A stretch of 34,955 nt of DNA from a virus: positions 1 to 34,955 of IMG/VR virus record IMGVR_UViG_3300028422_001967; one strand, written 5' to 3'. A program made the position numbers and the translations under genes. The notes beneath the pieces are model-generated. The model saw only the letters and a list, made by a program, of their open reading frames with translations. It had not been told where the DNA came from and made no database searches. This document shows positions 8,833 through 28,929 of the stretch, piece after piece. Positions within the stretch are counted from its first letter, which is position 1, and each line of letters opens with the position of its first letter.

Positions 8833-10562
8833 TACTGCGCCACCTCCGCGGCTACGGCCAAGATCGTGGCCGGGTTGGCACTGGTTCCGGTGATGCGAAC
8901 GGTTGCCCCGCGCCCACCGGCGCGCCCGCCCCTCCACCCGAGGAAGCGGATCGGCTTGGTGCCGGTGAATGGCTGCGGCGGGCGGTCGAGCAGGTCATCG
9001 CCGACGAACTGGTCCGCTATCGGGCGGCCGTTCACCGTCATCCCGGCGGTGTTCTCGACGACGATGGACGCGCGGACGATGCGATGGCGTTCCATGATCT
9101 CGGAGCCGTCCACCATTGCCGGCATGGTCTCGACGGCCCAGTCGAACGAGAAGCCGATCTCAATCGAGGACACCGCGTAGGGCGCGGTGATCGCGCCGCC
9201 GGTCACTACAGCCTGCCCAAGCGGCGCCCCGTCGCCTATCAGGTCGACGGTTTCGCCCTCGTAGAAGTCGAGCAGGTCGTCATCCCATGTGTCAGTCGCG
9301 GTTTCTGCGGTGAACGCAACCGAGCAATCCAAGCGACGGTCTGGATCGAGGCGCTCTATGGTGTAGATGCTGTTTTCGGCGACCACACGATGAACCAGGA
9401 AATACGGGATATTTCCAACGACAGCGACAGCGAGGATTTCCCCTCCGGTCGTCAACAGCGTCCACCCGGTCATCTTCTGGACCTTGCGGGAATTGAGAAC
9501 GGCGACTGTTCCGTCCTCGCCGTTGACGACGTAGAGGTGGTTCGCGCTGTTGGTCTCGTTCCCTCGCCGCGCCGCCATGTCGACCGGCTGGCGCATCAGA
9601 GCCGACGAGAGCAGCGCCACGTCCTCGGCACGGTAGCTCTGGGTGTCGTAGTCGAAGATCACCTCGTAGATCGTGCTGAAACCGCTTTCCTCGCCGTAGC
9701 TGGCGTACATCACAGAGCCATCGATTTCTGCGGGGCGCAGCCGGGCGGCGGGCACCTCGCTAGAGCGCCGCATGAAGAAGTTCTGCGGCGTGATCGCGTC
9801 ATCGGCGACGCGAGCAAACAGCCCACCTTTGGTGAAGGCGAAGAAGTCGTTGAGCGCGTAGAGCTGCTGGACGGCGCAAACGCGATCGTTGTCGAACGTG
9901 AGTTCCACAGCCTCGTCGTCCAGAGCACTGCTGGTGGTAGCGAAGTCGAAGAAGTCGTTCGCGCCGCTGCCCCATACGGTTTGGGGGCGGGCGCGCGACC
10001 CGCCGAAGTAGAGTCGCCCCTGGTGTAGGAACACCGAGCGGGGCCATCCGCGCGTCGCAGACCAAACGTTCTCATTCCCACTGCCAAAATCGTACTGAGG
10101 CACGTTGGTGAGGGTGATCGTCGACAGCGTCCACGAGGTGTGCGAGCCAGAGCGCACCAGTTTTGCCGGTGCATGATCTGGATGCACGAGGATCAGCGTG
10201 TCGAGGCTCTGGACCCATGACAGCGCAGCGATTTCATCGGCGGTGTAGGTTGTGGTGACGGTTGCCGCCAGCGTGCCGTCTGGCAAATACACGTCGATCG
10301 CCAGCGCCCGAACCAGCATCAGGTAGACCTGCTCCGTCGAGAACTCGAAACGCAGCAGCCGGGCATTGTCGCCACCGCTGGCGACGGTCGCGAACCACGC
10401 GAGCCCACCGCGCAGCGTCACGCCGCCGAGAGGAAGCCCGAGCATATTGGTGACGTCCAGCCCGCCCGACTTGTACGCCTCAACGTCGAACCGAGCGATG
10501 CTTGCTTCATCCAGCATTCCCGCGGAAAAGTTCGTCTGGATGCTGTAGCCGCGGCTCGCCAT
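8832..10562 (-). CDS. Tail tubular protein B / nozzle protein
   Basis: The 576-residue beta-rich protein fits the T7 gp12-like nozzle that forms the distal tail tube. It begins RGYSIQTNFSAGMLDEASIARFD, a typical nozzle opening, and contains WSATRGWPRSVFLHQGRLYF near 160-180. The ATG at 10560-10562 forms a TGATG overlap with the adaptor stop; the GTG just before it is less likely. It is preceded by the adaptor and followed by the internal proteins, the standard podovirus order. Confidence 0.86.
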   Translation of the reverse strand: MASRGYSIQTNFSAGMLDEASIARFDVEAYKSGGLDVTNMLGLPLGGVTLRGGLAWFATVASGGDNARLLRFEFSTEQVYLMLVRALAIDVYLPDGTLAATVTTTYTADEIAALSWVQSLDTLILVHPDHAPAKLVRSGSHTSWTLSTITLTNVPQYDFGSGNENVWSATRGWPRSVFLHQGRLYFGGSRARPQTVWGSGANDFFDFATTSSALDDEAVELTFDNDRVCAVQQLYALNDFFAFTKGGLFARVADDAITPQNFFMRRSSEVPAARLRPAEIDGSVMYASYGEESGFSTIYEVIFDYDTQSYRAEDVALLSSALMRQPVDMAARRGNETNSANHLYVVNGEDGTVAVLNSRKVQKMTGWTLLTTGGEILAVAVVGNIPYFLVHRVVAENSIYTIERLDPDRRLDCSVAFTAETATDTWDDDLLDFYEGETVDLIGDGAPLGQAVVTGGAITAPYAVSSIEIGFSFDWAVETMPAMVDGSEIMERHRIVRASIVVENTAGMTVNGRPIADQFVGDDLLDRPPQPFTGTKPIRFLGWRGGRAGGRGATVRITGTSANPATILAVAAEVAQ

Positions 10563-18548: not shown

Positions 18549-19013
18549 TAGCCTCGGGTAATACCCTTCGCGCCTCAGCCGTTCGTCGATGCGGCGCGCC
18601 GCCTTGGTCGCGCTCCTGTCGACCTGCGCCATGATATCCGGCGCGTCCTCCATGGTTGCCAAGATCGCGTCCATCGCCTGGTCGAAGTCGCTGCCCTTGA
18701 CGAGTTCGAGCACACCGTCGTCGAGCAAAGCCTTGAGCCACAGCGTGAGCGCGAGGAACGCGGTTGCGTGCGCGTGACCCCTCAACTCGTCCATGACGAT
18801 GCCGGCGGCCCGCTCGACGCGGCACGCAAGACGCCAAGCCTCGTCCCTGGTCAACCCCTGCATTGGCTCCATGGCCGCGCGCTGCAGGCAGGCGATCGCG
18901 TTGCGGTCGTCGTCTGTGCGAATGTCCTCGGATACGCACTGCGTGACCATGCGGTGCATGAGGTTCGCGGGCAGCGCCAGTTCGACGCGGCGGCGGGCGG
19001 AAAGGTGCATCAT
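18528..19013 (-). CDS. Helical phage protein of unknown function
   Basis: The 161-residue protein is helical and acidic, with AAMEPMQGLTRDEAWRLACR near 46-65 and a hydrophobic stretch HATAFLALTLWLKALLDDGV near 81-100. No family was recognised. It is the last gene before terS and overlaps the previous stop as ATGA. It may belong to the replication block or be a late regulator; neither is shown. Confidence 0.7.
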   Translation of the reverse strand: MMHLSARRRVELALPANLMHRMVTQCVSEDIRTDDDRNAIACLQRAAMEPMQGLTRDEAWRLACRVERAAGIVMDELRGHAHATAFLALTLWLKALLDDGVLELVKGSDFDQAMDAILATMEDAPDIMAQVDRSATKAARRIDERLRREGYYPRLLGVAAE

Positions 19014-19765
19014 TCCGCGGCCTCCGCTGAGAGCGTCGGAGAGATCTTCGCGGCCTCGCTCGGCGTTGCGCCCTCACCGATCAGTCGCCAGTACACCGGT
19101 CGATCGACGGCAGATAGAGTTCTAGCAACGCGCTGTGCCTCTGTCGTCTGGCGCTCAGCGTGCGTGTCCATGCGCACTGCGCCATCAAGGCGGGCCAAAA
19201 GCGCGTCCAGAGCAGAGCGATCCCGGATCGGATCGGCCGCAATTCTGGCGTCCTCCTCTTCCTGCCTGCGCCTCGCCTCAGATCGCCTCGCGTGCTCGCG
19301 CTGGTGCCGCCACGCGATGAACGCCGCATCGCGGATCGGCTTGAGGATCTTCTCCGCCCGTGCCGTCAGGTCGCCAGGGAGCGGGTTCCCGAAGCGATGG
19401 GTCATCACCACGTCGTCGACGACCGCCTTTGCGACGGCGGCAGGCATCCTGGCGAACGCAGCGCAGACGGCGCGGACGTAGATGTCCCTGGCCTGCTCGT
19501 CCTCCTCGCTCTCAGCCCTATGCCCGACGCGTGCCCCAGCAAAGACCGCGAGCATGATCGTCGCCTGCCGCTTGCCGATCTCGTCGCCACATGGGGTGAG
19601 CGCATCTTCCGCCTCGGCGATGATCGCCTCGCACGCATTGGCCGGAAGTAGCGCCGTAGATGACCCGATTTCGTCGTCTCGGCCCAAATTCCCAAGGCGA
19701 GGCGCTAGGCGCTCAATCGGACCGCCAACCAACCTCCCGCCATTCCAAACCGCAATCTCACCCAT
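19010..19765 (-). CDS. Replication-region protein, possible loader or regulator
   Basis: The 251-residue protein follows the replication initiator with an 8-nt overlap. It has GDEIGKRQATIMLAVF near 60-75, a helical middle, and a highly charged stretch (RHQREHARRSEARRRQEEED near 152-171). No nucleotide-binding motif was seen, so a DnaC-type ATPase is not supported. Position suggests a role in phage DNA replication. Confidence 0.68.
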   Translation of the reverse strand: MGEIAVWNGGRLVGGPIERLAPRLGNLGRDDEIGSSTALLPANACEAIIAEAEDALTPCGDEIGKRQATIMLAVFAGARVGHRAESEEDEQARDIYVRAVCAAFARMPAAVAKAVVDDVVMTHRFGNPLPGDLTARAEKILKPIRDAAFIAWRHQREHARRSEARRRQEEEDARIAADPIRDRSALDALLARLDGAVRMDTHAERQTTEAQRVARTLSAVDRPVYWRLIGEGATPSEAAKISPTLSAEAAE

Positions 19766-20618
19766 GCCCCGCCTCCCGATTGAGCCTCACCAGTGCGCCA
19801 ACCAACCCGGACGGCTCGGCAGGCTTACGCGGGGCAAACGGCGCGACACCGGCCTTGCGCTCGGCGATACGGTTCCCGAGGGCCTTGTTCACCCACGGCA
19901 GAGGCTGAGCGGCGCAGGACGCTTCCGCAGATCGGATTGTTTCGATCACCTCGCTCGGCTCGTGGCGCTTGAGCCATTGGCCCATCATCGAGCGAACGGA
20001 TTTTTCGGTGTTCGCGCTACCGCACCGCAGGTAGGCGATCGTCTCGGCAGACCAGCATTCATCGAGATCCGGTTTAACCTCGACGGCGACGTCAGACGCC
20101 AGGGTCGAAGACCCTGCCTCTTTCTGCTCTTGTTCTTGCTCCTGCTCCTGCTCTTGGCTTCGAAGGGGCTTCGAAGGGGCTTCGAAGGGGCTATCACAGC
20201 CACGGCATTTCGTGAGATGGAAAGCATCTCCGTATTTCTCGAAAAAAGCTTTCAGATGAATGCACTGCGGGACGTCATCATACTCGCGCTGGATGCCGAC
20301 GCAGCGCTTGTCCTCGGCCTTGAGCGCGTCACCGATCTGGAAGCGGGCCATTTCGTGCACCCAGACCACCTCAGAGGCTTCGTCGTATGAGCAAAACCCC
20401 GCTTCGATGGCCCTTCGAAGCCCCTTCCATGCCCCTTCGATAGAGAGGCCAGTTTCGTGCGCCAGGAACATCGCAGGCAGGTAATAGAGGCCGATCATGT
20501 TCGAGTGCGGAGACGTAATCAGGTACGCCGCGACGATTTGCGCTTCCATGTTTCCGCGCAGTTCGCGCCCCGTGGTGCCGATCCAGAACTTCGATGTGAC
20601 CTTCCCGTAGTCGCGCAT
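19758..20618 (-). CDS. Phage replication initiator, winged-helix type
   Basis: The 286-residue protein opens MRDYGKVTSKFWIGTTGREL, then RGNMEAQIVAAYLITSP, a pattern I recognise from phage replication proteins with an N-terminal winged helix. A Gln-Glu repeat lies near 156-166. The C-terminal part ends in WVNKALGNR, of the kind that may contact a helicase loader. The ATG at 20618 is chosen because GAGG lies 5 nt upstream. The gene contains two arrays of 11-bp repeats whose 11-nt period is not a multiple of three, so they are probably kept for their DNA sequence and mark an internal origin, as in lambda O. Confidence 0.78.
   Translation of the reverse strand: MRDYGKVTSKFWIGTTGRELRGNMEAQIVAAYLITSPHSNMIGLYYLPAMFLAHETGLSIEGAWKGLRRAIEAGFCSYDEASEVVWVHEMARFQIGDALKAEDKRCVGIQREYDDVPQCIHLKAFFEKYGDAFHLTKCRGCDSPFEAPSKPLRSQEQEQEQEQEQKEAGSSTLASDVAVEVKPDLDECWSAETIAYLRCGSANTEKSVRSMMGQWLKRHEPSEVIETIRSAEASCAAQPLPWVNKALGNRIAERKAGVAPFAPRKPAEPSGLVGALVRLNREAGHG
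20125..20154. repeat. Five hexamers encoding a Gln-Glu repeat
   Basis: Five near copies of TGCTCY on the plus strand encode alternating Gln and Glu on the minus strand. This low-complexity linker sits next to the first iteron array and may be slippage-prone. Confidence 0.75.
20158..20190. repeat. Iteron array A: three perfect 11-bp repeats
   Basis: CTTCGAAGGGG occurs three times with no spacing (CCCCTTCGAAG on the minus strand). The period is 11 bp, one helical turn. It encodes EAPSKPLRS in different registers, so codon repetition does not explain it. It is one half of the proposed origin. Confidence 0.85.
20218..20262. other. AT-richer segment between iteron arrays
   Basis: This stretch contains GTATTTCTCGAAAAAAGCTT and is clearly richer in A and T than its surroundings. 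By analogy with lambda-type origins it is a candidate unwinding element. Unwinding function is inference only. Confidence 0.4.
20397..20442. repeat. Iteron array B: 11-bp repeats in inverted orientation
   Basis: On the plus strand GCCCTTCGAAG, CCCCTTCCATG and CCCCTTCGATA follow each other exactly every 11 bp, preceded by a looser CCCC-GCTTCGATG copy. They are inverted relative to array A, about 220 bp away, within the same gene. Conservation of the period across coding sequence supports DNA-level selection. Confidence 0.75.
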
Positions 20619-20625
20619 CACCACC

Positions 20626-21141: not shown

Positions 21142-21374
21142 CACGCGGCCTCCCCACAGAGCGCCCGGAACGCGGCGACGACGCGCTGGCGGAACGGTAC
21201 GACGCGCGGAGGCGTCATGTCGGGCAGCGGCAGCAATTCGTTGCGCATTGCCAGGTGTACGGCGTCGCGGAGACGGGAAAAAGCGCGCGCCTGCCCGGCG
21301 TGTGCCTTGCGGGCCTCGACGTAATCGCGCGCTGCTGCTGCGACGAGCGGATAGGCGATCTCGATGCGGTTCAT
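21141..21374 (-). CDS. Small helical protein of unknown function
   Basis: The 77-residue protein is helical and basic, with AAAARDYVEARKAHAGQARA near 12-31. It lies between rusA and the double-HTH gene, joined by ATGA and TGATG. No function is recognised. Confidence 0.65.
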   Translation of the reverse strand: MNRIEIAYPLVAAAARDYVEARKAHAGQARAFSRLRDAVHLAMRNELLPLPDMTPPRVVPFRQRVVAAFRALCGEAA

Positions 21375-21790
21375 GGCATGATCTCCGTGATTTGTACGGT
21401 GGTGCGCGGCGTGTCGCTATAGGCCTTGCTCGCGGAGATGCTCACCACCTGCTTGTCGTCGGCGAACACGATGCCGTTAATCGCGTCGAGGATCAGCTTC
21501 ACCACGTTGTCGAGGTCGGGCTTGCACGGGCAGGGGAGCCCGGCGGCCTCGGCCTTCTTGCGCTTCGACCAACTGGCTGGGATCGGCGCTTCTACGGCCA
21601 CCAGAACCACGACCGGATGCGTCGTCGCCACACGCCCGGCCATCGCGTCCATGGCGAGACTTGCGACGATGCCCTCGCGAGTGCGCGTAAGCTTCGGCGT
21701 GTAGGCGTGCGCAAATCCGTTGCGCGCGCTCAGGCGCGGCCGTCCCTTGCCGGTTGGCGCGCCGGGTATGACGAAGGAGACGGCCGCCAT
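21371..21790 (-). CDS. rusA: RusA-type Holliday junction resolvase
   Basis: The 139-residue protein fits the RusA family of prophage resolvases, which cut four-way junctions. Residues 3-18 read AVSFVIPGAPTGKGRP and the catalytic region is KPDLDNVVKLILDAINGIVF near 90-109, followed by ADDKQV. D92, D94, K98 and D111/D112 correspond to the metal-binding and catalytic positions. Length is typical. It would act with the right-arm recombinases in replication and recombination. Confidence 0.9.
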   Translation of the reverse strand: MAAVSFVIPGAPTGKGRPRLSARNGFAHAYTPKLTRTREGIVASLAMDAMAGRVATTHPVVVLVAVEAPIPASWSKRKKAEAAGLPCPCKPDLDNVVKLILDAINGIVFADDKQVVSISASKAYSDTPRTTVQITEIMP

Positions 21791-26758: not shown

Positions 26759-26921
26759 GGCTGAGAAAAATCTGCTCACCATGAAGCGGCTGCCACGTTC
26801 CGGCGTGGCGCTGCGCGAGATCTCCGTCGACGCCTACGTGCGCGGCGACAAGGACGGAGCCTTGGTTATCTACACGCTCGCCGAGGCTGTCGAAGCCGAT
26901 GGCAGGAAGGCGACGCCATGA
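26751..26921 (+). CDS. 56-residue phage protein
   Basis: The basic peptide LTMKRLPRSGVALREISVDA, then YVRGDKDGALVIYTLAEAV, precedes the exonuclease and overlaps it as ATGA. No family recognised. Confidence 0.65.
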   Translation: MAEAEKNLLTMKRLPRSGVALREISVDAYVRGDKDGALVIYTLAEAVEADGRKATP

Positions 26922-27907
26922 GCAACATCCCGCTCTCCGAGCGCCGCAAATTCGTCGGCGCATCCGAGGTAGGCAGCCTCTTCTACGCCGTCGAGACGGA
27001 AGACGGGCGTATTGTCTATCCGCACATGTTCGAGCCACTTCCGCCCGGCGCTGCGATCCTCGGGTGCTTGTCACGCCACACCACCGGATACCGCCTCTGG
27101 CACATCAAGGCCGGAAACGTCGACGCCGACAACCTCGACGAGGTGGAACGCGTGCAGGCGGGGCAGCACATGGAACCAGCCATTGCCGCATGGTCCGCCG
27201 AGAAGTGGCCGGAGTGGTCCGGCGTTCTGCGCAAGGTGCGCCGCTACATCGAACATCCAGAGATCACCGGCTTCGGCGCGTCGCGCGACTACGAGTTGCA
27301 CGCCGCCGGGCTTCCGCCGGTCGAGATCAAGAACGTCGACGGCCTGATATTCCGCGACGAGTGGCAGGCGGACGGCGACGAGATCACCGCTCCGCCGCTC
27401 GACATCACGCTGCAGGTGCAGCACCAGATCGCCGCAGACAGATCGAAGGCGGACCACGGATGGATCGTCGCCTGCGTCGGCGGCAACCGGCTGCTGCGCG
27501 GCAGGATCGCGGCGCACGCACCCACCATTGCCCGCATCGAGGATGCAGTGGCGGCCTTTTGGCGCAGCGTCGCCGACGGCATTCCGCCCGACGACTTCGC
27601 CGACATCGAAACCGCGTCGGAACTCTACCTTGACAACGAGCGCGCGGCGCTGCTCGACCTCGATGGCGATAACCGCTTCCCGGACCTGTGCGCGCGGTAT
27701 CGAAAACTCGACCGCATCACCAAACGCGCGTCCGGCTTGCGCGACGCCGTGAAGGCACAGATTGCCCTCAAGGTGGCTGATGCCACGCGCGCCGAGGGTT
27801 CCGGGTTCCGCGTCACCTATCCCATCGTGCACCGCAAGGAGCGCGTCCAGACCATCGCCGCCGGGACCTACCGGGGTACCCTCACCATCAAGGAGATCGT
27901 TCGATGA
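26918..27907 (+). CDS. YqaJ-type recombination exonuclease
   Basis: The 329-residue protein fits the YqaJ/lambda-exonuclease fold that resects double-strand ends. Motifs seen are VGASEVGSLF (13-22), GQHMEPAIA (82-90), D124 and PVEIKNVDG (134-142, with E136 and K138), then QVQHQ (166-170). The gene overlaps recT as ATGA, the standard pairing of exonuclease and annealing protein. Confidence 0.88.
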   Translation: MSNIPLSERRKFVGASEVGSLFYAVETEDGRIVYPHMFEPLPPGAAILGCLSRHTTGYRLWHIKAGNVDADNLDEVERVQAGQHMEPAIAAWSAEKWPEWSGVLRKVRRYIEHPEITGFGASRDYELHAAGLPPVEIKNVDGLIFRDEWQADGDEITAPPLDITLQVQHQIAADRSKADHGWIVACVGGNRLLRGRIAAHAPTIARIEDAVAAFWRSVADGIPPDDFADIETASELYLDNERAALLDLDGDNRFPDLCARYRKLDRITKRASGLRDAVKAQIALKVADATRAEGSGFRVTYPIVHRKERVQTIAAGTYRGTLTIKEIVR

Positions 27908-28929
27908 ACACAGCCGTTGCCACGCAGCAGCAGAAACAGGTCGTGCCGTTCGAGCAGGTGCGCGAGCAGGTCCTTTCACACGCTTTCGCCGAGCAGGTGA
28001 AGATGGCACTGCCAGACCACATCAGCGTCGAGAAGTTCCAGCGGATCGTCATCACCGCGCTGGCGAAAACGCCGGACCTCGTTGCCGCCGACCGCCCCAG
28101 CCTGTTCACCTCGTGCGTGGAAGCCGCCGCGGACGGTCTCCTTCCCAATGGCAAGGAGGCTGCGCTCGTCGTCTACAACACTAAGGTCAAGCGCAACGGC
28201 ACGGACGTGTGGATCAAGGCGGTCCAGTACATGCCGATGATCGCCGGGATCTACAAGAAGGCCCGCAACTCCGGCGAGGTGAAGACGCTGGCAGCCTACG
28301 TCGTGTTCGAGAACGACGAATTCAGCTTCAAATACGGGTTCGAGCCTAGCATCACCCACAAGCCGATCATCGGAGACCGCGGTAATCCCATCGCTGTCTA
28401 CGCCGTCGCGGTTCTGGCGGATGACTCCCGAGACCTCGAGGTGATGACTATCGATGAGGTCGAAAAGGTCAGAAAGGCGTCGAAGTCTGGCGACAACGGC
28501 CCGTGGAAGGCGTGGTGGGAGGAGATGGCGCGTAAGACCGTGGTGCGCCGCCTCGCGAAGCGAATGCCACTGACCCCCGACCTCGAGCGCGTCGTGAACC
28601 GCATGGATGCGCTGTACGAATTCGAGGACGGCAAGCAGAGCCGTGCCATCAGCGGTAGCACCCGCAAGCCCGCCATCGGCTTCGCCACCACCGAACAGCA
28701 GGCGTCCGCGTTCGCGCCGGCAGGCGAAACCGTCGACGCAGAAACCGGCGAGGTGATCGAGGGCAAGACCGTGGAGCACAGCGCCGGCGCGGCCGCGCTC
28801 TCGATCCTCCAGGCCTGCAAGTCGCTCGATGACATCGACGCAGCCTGGGACGCGCTCGGCGACGATGAAAAGGCCGCCGTCGGTGCCGATGCCTATGACG
28901 AACTGCGCATGAAGCTGGGGGCCGAGTGA
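27904..28929 (+). CDS. recT: RecT-family single-strand annealing protein
   Basis: The 341-residue protein matches RecT: ALAKTPDLVAADRPSLFTSC near 52-71, AAADGLLPNGKEAALVVYNT near 74-93, and WIKAVQYMPMIAGIYKKARN. It pairs complementary strands made by the adjacent exonuclease. The C-terminal 80 residues are acidic and variable. Confidence 0.92.
   Translation: MNTAVATQQQKQVVPFEQVREQVLSHAFAEQVKMALPDHISVEKFQRIVITALAKTPDLVAADRPSLFTSCVEAAADGLLPNGKEAALVVYNTKVKRNGTDVWIKAVQYMPMIAGIYKKARNSGEVKTLAAYVVFENDEFSFKYGFEPSITHKPIIGDRGNPIAVYAVAVLADDSRDLEVMTIDEVEKVRKASKSGDNGPWKAWWEEMARKTVVRRLAKRMPLTPDLERVVNRMDALYEFEDGKQSRAISGSTRKPAIGFATTEQQASAFAPAGETVDAETGEVIEGKTVEHSAGAAALSILQACKSLDDIDAAWDALGDDEKAAVGADAYDELRMKLGAE

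Follow-up and report, generated by a model that had tools for sequence, protein, structure and literature searches.

The closest described systems are two phage origins that lie inside an initiator gene. Lambda ori, within gene O, combines iterons with a strand-asymmetric AT-rich unwinding tract (PMC7466680, PMC5043065). In SPP1, oriL lies within gene 38 and carries direct repeats that are bound by the protein encoded by that same gene, with an adjacent unwinding element (PMC6316719). The locus described here belongs to the window, i.e. the whole stretch of 34,955 nucleotides that was analysed (IMG/VR virus record IMGVR_UViG_3300028422_001967), and its initiator gene, like those of lambda and SPP1, contains tandem repeats spaced at close to one helical turn. 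As in the origins of lambda and of the Stx phages, the iterons lie centrally in the initiator gene and are followed by what may be a strand-asymmetric unwinding tract. Lambda has a single array of four iterons (six in the Stx phages), whereas the window phage has 9-bp sites repeated every 11 bp. A second array, absent from lambda, lies within the stretch that encodes the folded DNA-binding domain, and the plain AT-rich tract is replaced by a hexamer repeat tract. SPP1 gene 38, which encodes the replisome organizer G38P, was compared by layout: it also has repeats inside the initiator gene; a difference is that SPP1 possesses another origin, oriR, at a distance of about 13 kb. The likeness to DnaA-trio and plasmid unwinding elements is an analogy only: in both cases a short strand-specific repeat stands beside the duplex sites of the initiator, but the units are here of 6 nt (approximately RGWNAN) instead of trinucleotides, and a DnaA-type AAA+ module is not apparent in the window protein.

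The initiator gene occupies positions 19758-20624 on the minus strand, with a likely ATG start codon at 20616-20618, and encodes a protein of 288 amino acids with an N-terminal winged helix, a linker and a variable C-terminal part. Its profile matched phrog_25210 (E 7e-77), phrog_12196 (1e-74) and phrog_1701, "DnaD-like helicase loader" (5e-56), which are by profile the same protein family; the matches to phrog_1701 and phrog_25210 extend over the N-terminal domain. Although PHROG 1701 is labelled as a helicase loader, the combination of a winged helix, iterons of its own and a variable C-terminal part in the window protein suggests an initiator that binds an origin. For the family of phrog_1701, phrog_25210 and phrog_12196, we came across no description of an origin. 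The window protein matched no Pfam family at E ≤ 0.1, and seven relatives matched none at E ≤ 0.01; because of this, the initiator was not filed in the lambda O family, though lambda O, cited in the initial annotation as the precedent for iterons within an initiator gene, remains a fair comparison. The AF2 model, based on a 44-sequence alignment, comprises a confident N-terminal winged helix (a block with pLDDT 94-98 over residues 11-140), a linker that is for the most part unstructured, and a C-terminal part made of helices. Searches of the PDB by sequence and by fold returned no significant relative, just generic winged-helix matches, and the structural matches of the protein include viral proteins named replisome organizer.

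The gene that overlaps the 3' end of the initiator gene (19010-19765, minus strand) occupies the position of lambda P, i.e. of a helicase loader. It had no match in Pfam and no convincing one in PHROGs or phage records and, on the basis of its position, it is a candidate for an undescribed type of helicase loader. Among the relatives, the gene neighbouring the initiator is annotated as a replication protein or DnaC in L002, L003, L004 and L007, and as a primase or helicase in L005, L006 and L008. Named relatives are annotated as replication protein O or primosomal protein and adjoin cI/Cro/CII-type regulators, often together with a DnaC-like or other replication gene. Elsewhere in the window, we observed a RusA-like resolvase at 21371-21790 (minus strand) and a pair formed by a RecE-like exonuclease and a RecT annealing protein at 26918-28929 (plus strand). 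The GC-skew minimum of the window at about 20-23 kb was weak and not unique, and GC skew was dropped as support for an origin.

The linker iteron array (20156-20194, minus strand) is composed of three perfect 11-bp units, reads AAGCCCCTTCG on the coding strand and encodes SPFEAPSKPLRS. Within it, CTTCGAAGGGG is repeated perfectly at 20158-20168, 20169-20179 and 20180-20190, as the initial annotation had reported. The inverted set of 11-bp repeats that had been placed at 20410-20442 also exists, but it is imperfect (82% matches) and somewhat longer: this N-terminal array spans 20402-20441 on the minus strand, with 3.6 units detected by TRF (roughly CGCTTCGATGG / CCCTTCGAAGC / CCCTTCCATGC / CCCTTCGATAG), and encodes EGAWKGLRRAIEA. 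Compared with GAAGGGGCTTC, it gave three matches, one exact and two with 2 mismatches. It is coextensive with the recognition helix predicted by AF2 (residues 60-72, positions 20403-20441), and the stretch of the linker array has no predicted secondary structure. Both arrays are inside the initiator ORF, and the two peptides quoted for them, EAPSKPLRS and EGAWKGLRRAIEAG, are correct. In the whole window, the 11-mer at up to 2 mismatches had 15 matches against 12.7 expected, i.e. single copies are not rare; six of the 15 are the two arrays, and no further cluster was present. The inter-array DNA (20195-20401), part of the candidate origin, is AT-richer, as previously noted, and this holds at synonymous sites too (AT3 0.47 vs 0.37, p=4e-6, 45 homologues). 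On the coding strand, the 3' end of the linker array is immediately followed by a hexamer repeat tract (CARGAR)n, with TRF period 6, which extends over 20124-20156 (minus strand) and encodes QEQEQEQEQEQ. This tract, the overlap between the N-terminal array and the codons of the predicted recognition helix, and the breadth of the element go beyond the initial annotation.

We consider it very probable that the region 20124-20441 is a replication origin inside the gene of its own initiator, with protein-bound arrays, duplex opening and helicase recruitment. The intragenic origin proposed at the outset is supported by our analysis, where the identity of the gene, the layout and the two experimental precedents (lambda ori and SPP1 oriL) suggest origin function. 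The arrays would be read by the predicted winged-helix domain of the encoded protein. In the order of events that we infer, this N-terminal domain would bind the 9-bp sites AAG-GGG-CTT in either orientation, and the 11-bp spacing would place the protomers on one face of the helix. With two arrays bound about 220 bp apart, the nucleoprotein complex would strain the DNA, and the duplex would open at or near the hexamer tract adjoining the linker array. One opened strand would then be captured, and the variable C-terminal part would recruit the helicase or a loader for it, in the way that lambda O recruits P.

Then, we evaluated how far the element extends among phages. The tblastn and pattern scans identified about 100 homologous loci, from phages and prophages of Acinetobacter, Klebsiella, Escherichia and Providencia, several other proteobacterial genomes and two Acidobacteriota-type MAGs; one relative belongs to phage PhiR5_2, whose host is E. 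coli K-12 MG1655. Nearly all the homologue matches end at residue ~156, which is the end of the linker array. This is explained by the reading of the codons: the conserved motif EGASKGL (GAA GGG GCT TCN AAG GGG CTT) and the linker motif EAPSKPL (GAA GCC CCT TCN AAG CCC CTT) represent a single DNA repeat, (AAGGGGCTTNN)n, read from one strand or the other. Furthermore, 2.9 million viral contigs were searched for the 20-mer AAGGGGCTTNGAAGGGGCTT without protein information, which gave at least 120 loci. Two groups of initiators were considered: f1, the HMM of the window initiator family, and f2, a second, diverged group ("MAKRFTDTEKW..."). Among the 120 matches listed, all copies were inside f1/f2 initiators in 106 and at least one copy in 109; for a second DNA pattern, 72 of 76 further loci were inside f1/f2 initiators. 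Of the remaining loci, several (L109, L133, L179, L207, L255, and L266) resemble initiator linkers of this layout that are truncated or went unrecognised, and in others (L116, L128, L185, L218, L250, and L283) the repeat pair lies away from any recognised initiator. In one of the latter, L250, clusters of AAGGGGCTT/AAGCCCCTT at ~3291 and 3726 are in what seems to be non-coding DNA, with no initiator recognised in the vicinity, and could be non-coding origins of the same type. Allowing 1 mismatch, the iteron density was 5.15/kb in the genes vs 0.24/kb in the flanks, the latter being about the chance rate. Two arrays were present in 85 of 126 representatives and three in 3 more, with the motif-found loci ascertained for one array and not for two; in the loci from the protein scan, which were not chosen by motif, AAGGGGCTT was in both places in 23 of 32 early f1 loci. 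An Undibacterium homologue (L093, 53% identical) retains the protein as well as the QEQE tract and has neither of the iteron arrays; it is perhaps a decayed prophage.

This distribution bears on the possibility that the DNA element has another job, either as an intragenic operator, with the initiator (or a repressor) regulating its own operon, or as a packaging or segregation site. Iteron initiators often autoregulate via the same kind of sites, and one relative (L210, ~10051-10090) carries an extra iteron array just upstream of the likely start codon of its initiator, i.e. outside the coding region, as an operator might. Nevertheless, the main arrays are at codons ~16-26 or 59-68 and ~105-175, away from a promoter, the pattern is nearly always within the initiator gene, and tandem iterons with a repeat tract are the layout of known intragenic phage origins, all of which makes such a function unlikely.

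If the locus is a real origin, its iterons could still be read by a host factor or by another phage protein. In favour of this, the same 9-mer occurs in initiators that are too diverged for BLAST linkage, and the hhalign comparison of f1 and f2 was not significant. On the other hand, two loci match both the f1 and f2 HMMs, and matches to phrog_25210 and phrog_1701 were obtained for 8 of 10 diverse members, on which grounds the f1 and f2 domains are probably homologous. Moreover, in the sister clade f3 the architecture is retained with another iteron, which is what one would expect of a site that follows its initiator, and we judge a different reader to be very improbable. In f3 (homologues near L099), the iteron is AAGCCTT/AAGGCTT (AAGSCTT) with a 12-bp period, in the same two places, and here too synonymous conservation at the array codons is among the highest. 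AAGSCTT was in both arrays in 43 of 51 f3 loci and AAGGGTT in both in 4 of 51 (Fisher p=1e-4, uncorrected for kinship); with correction for phylogeny, the tree held one supported independent pair for this site switching, too few for power. Another locus, L096, carries AAAGGGTT at 11-bp spacing in the codons of the helix, with AACGGTT in its linker.

The initial annotation had argued that protein repetition cannot explain the repeats, and we assessed this at synonymous sites on 45 dereplicated homologues (<85% nucleotide identity), with 97 columns tested against the codon usage of each individual locus. Array columns (n=16) were far more conserved than the other 81 in the gene, with a median z of 9.1 vs 1.9 (Mann-Whitney p=1.9e-9); the z-scores assume independent sequences and are inflated by kinship, so the control is this within-gene comparison. 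The maxima were 13.9 at the codons of the N-terminal array and 11.9 at those of the linker array. Instead of the same protein sequence with scrambled synonymous bases, the homologues presented at the arrays the most conserved synonymous sites of the gene. Indeed, GGG of EG, CTT of GL and CCC of KP were used at 98-100% vs ~20% expected, and the central Ser varies (W, T, K, L, C, M) while the flanking codons stay fixed. High synonymous conservation was also observed outside the arrays at codon 2 (CGT, z 9.7, ~20613-20615) and codon 120 (CCT, z 7.6, ~20259-20261). In the initiator gene of the window, the longest lag-11 identity run was 26 vs at most 10 in 2000 synonymous resamplings, and 19 12-mers had an inverted copy vs at most 14; none of 2000 recodings reached either value under both null models (synonymous codons resampled or permuted).

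A protein-level cause, in which a conserved recognition helix and a low-complexity linker leave DNA repeats as a by-product, has in its favour that EGASKGL is within the predicted recognition helix and that short-repeat linkers are common. It would leave unexplained the fixed synonymous codons, the free Ser position in a fixed codon context, the changes of orientation and frame described below, and the N-terminal array of one f2 clade, which relocates to codons 16-26 instead of 59-68. The synonymous-site test and the recoding nulls refute protein repetition as a sufficient explanation, and we regard this cause as having almost no chance of being correct. The relocation in f2 also means that the link with the recognition helix is not universal.

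The orientation of the linker array changed at least five times on the f1 tree; for example, L004, L005, L071 and L087 have an EGASKGL-like linker, i.e. the same repeat on the opposite strand. An RNA-level cause, with the inverted arrays pairing as a long mRNA hairpin, would agree with the 93% complementarity of the two window arrays over 30 nt but is rejected as practically untenable, because many relatives (L069, L087, L163, L165, L265, and others) have arrays in the same orientation, which cannot form a hairpin.

The hexamer tract behaves similarly across the family. Lag-6 identity was 0.58 on the 3' side of the linker array, compared with 0.31 in the stretch following the N-terminal array and 0.28 farther along, and the A+G content of the tract was 72%. 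The peptides of the tract differ (QE, DK, DM, GN, SN, KE, TG) and the DNA stays near RGWNAN. In some loci, the tract is read in another frame, giving TG or AG dipeptides (L058, L152, L284, and L118 in f1; L345 and L355 in f3), and at least three frame changes are needed on the f1 tree; apparent changes in L093 and L302 were artefacts of the phase call and were left out of the count. The same tract DNA being found in other frames, the tract too seems to be kept as DNA. In f1 it is purine-rich and periodic, not AT-rich or low in GC (CAGGAA has 50% GC). Based on the synonymous conservation, the orientation flips and the frame changes of the tract, these data show, we think, that both arrays and the hexamer tract are selected at the DNA level, over and above what the encoded protein requires.

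An intragenic iteron origin is a known kind of element. In the open-access text searched, we found nothing on this repeat or family, and we did not find described its breadth, a second array coextensive with the codons of the predicted recognition helix, or a frame-independent tract. The N-termini of 45 members formed one cluster and their C-termini 13, which places the exchange of partners at the linker with the second array. A bolder and rather doubtful idea is that the recognition helix is encoded by the very sites that it reads, so that a change of site would be a change of reader, and that domain and origin may form one phage-wide cassette, exchanging C-terminal partners at the frame-independent hexamer tract, which would be a strand-specific opening element.

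The finding would make it possible to predict origins from the DNA only in hundreds of phages, most of them uncultivated, and it would explain the odd conserved peptides EGASKGL, EAPSKPL and QEQEQE as origin DNA read as protein. Next to the iterons, the frame-independent hexamer tract offers a concrete candidate for the element that opens the strands in such phage origins. Furthermore, the locus poses a testable question on how a binding site and a DNA-binding domain co-evolve when the site lies in the domain's own gene.
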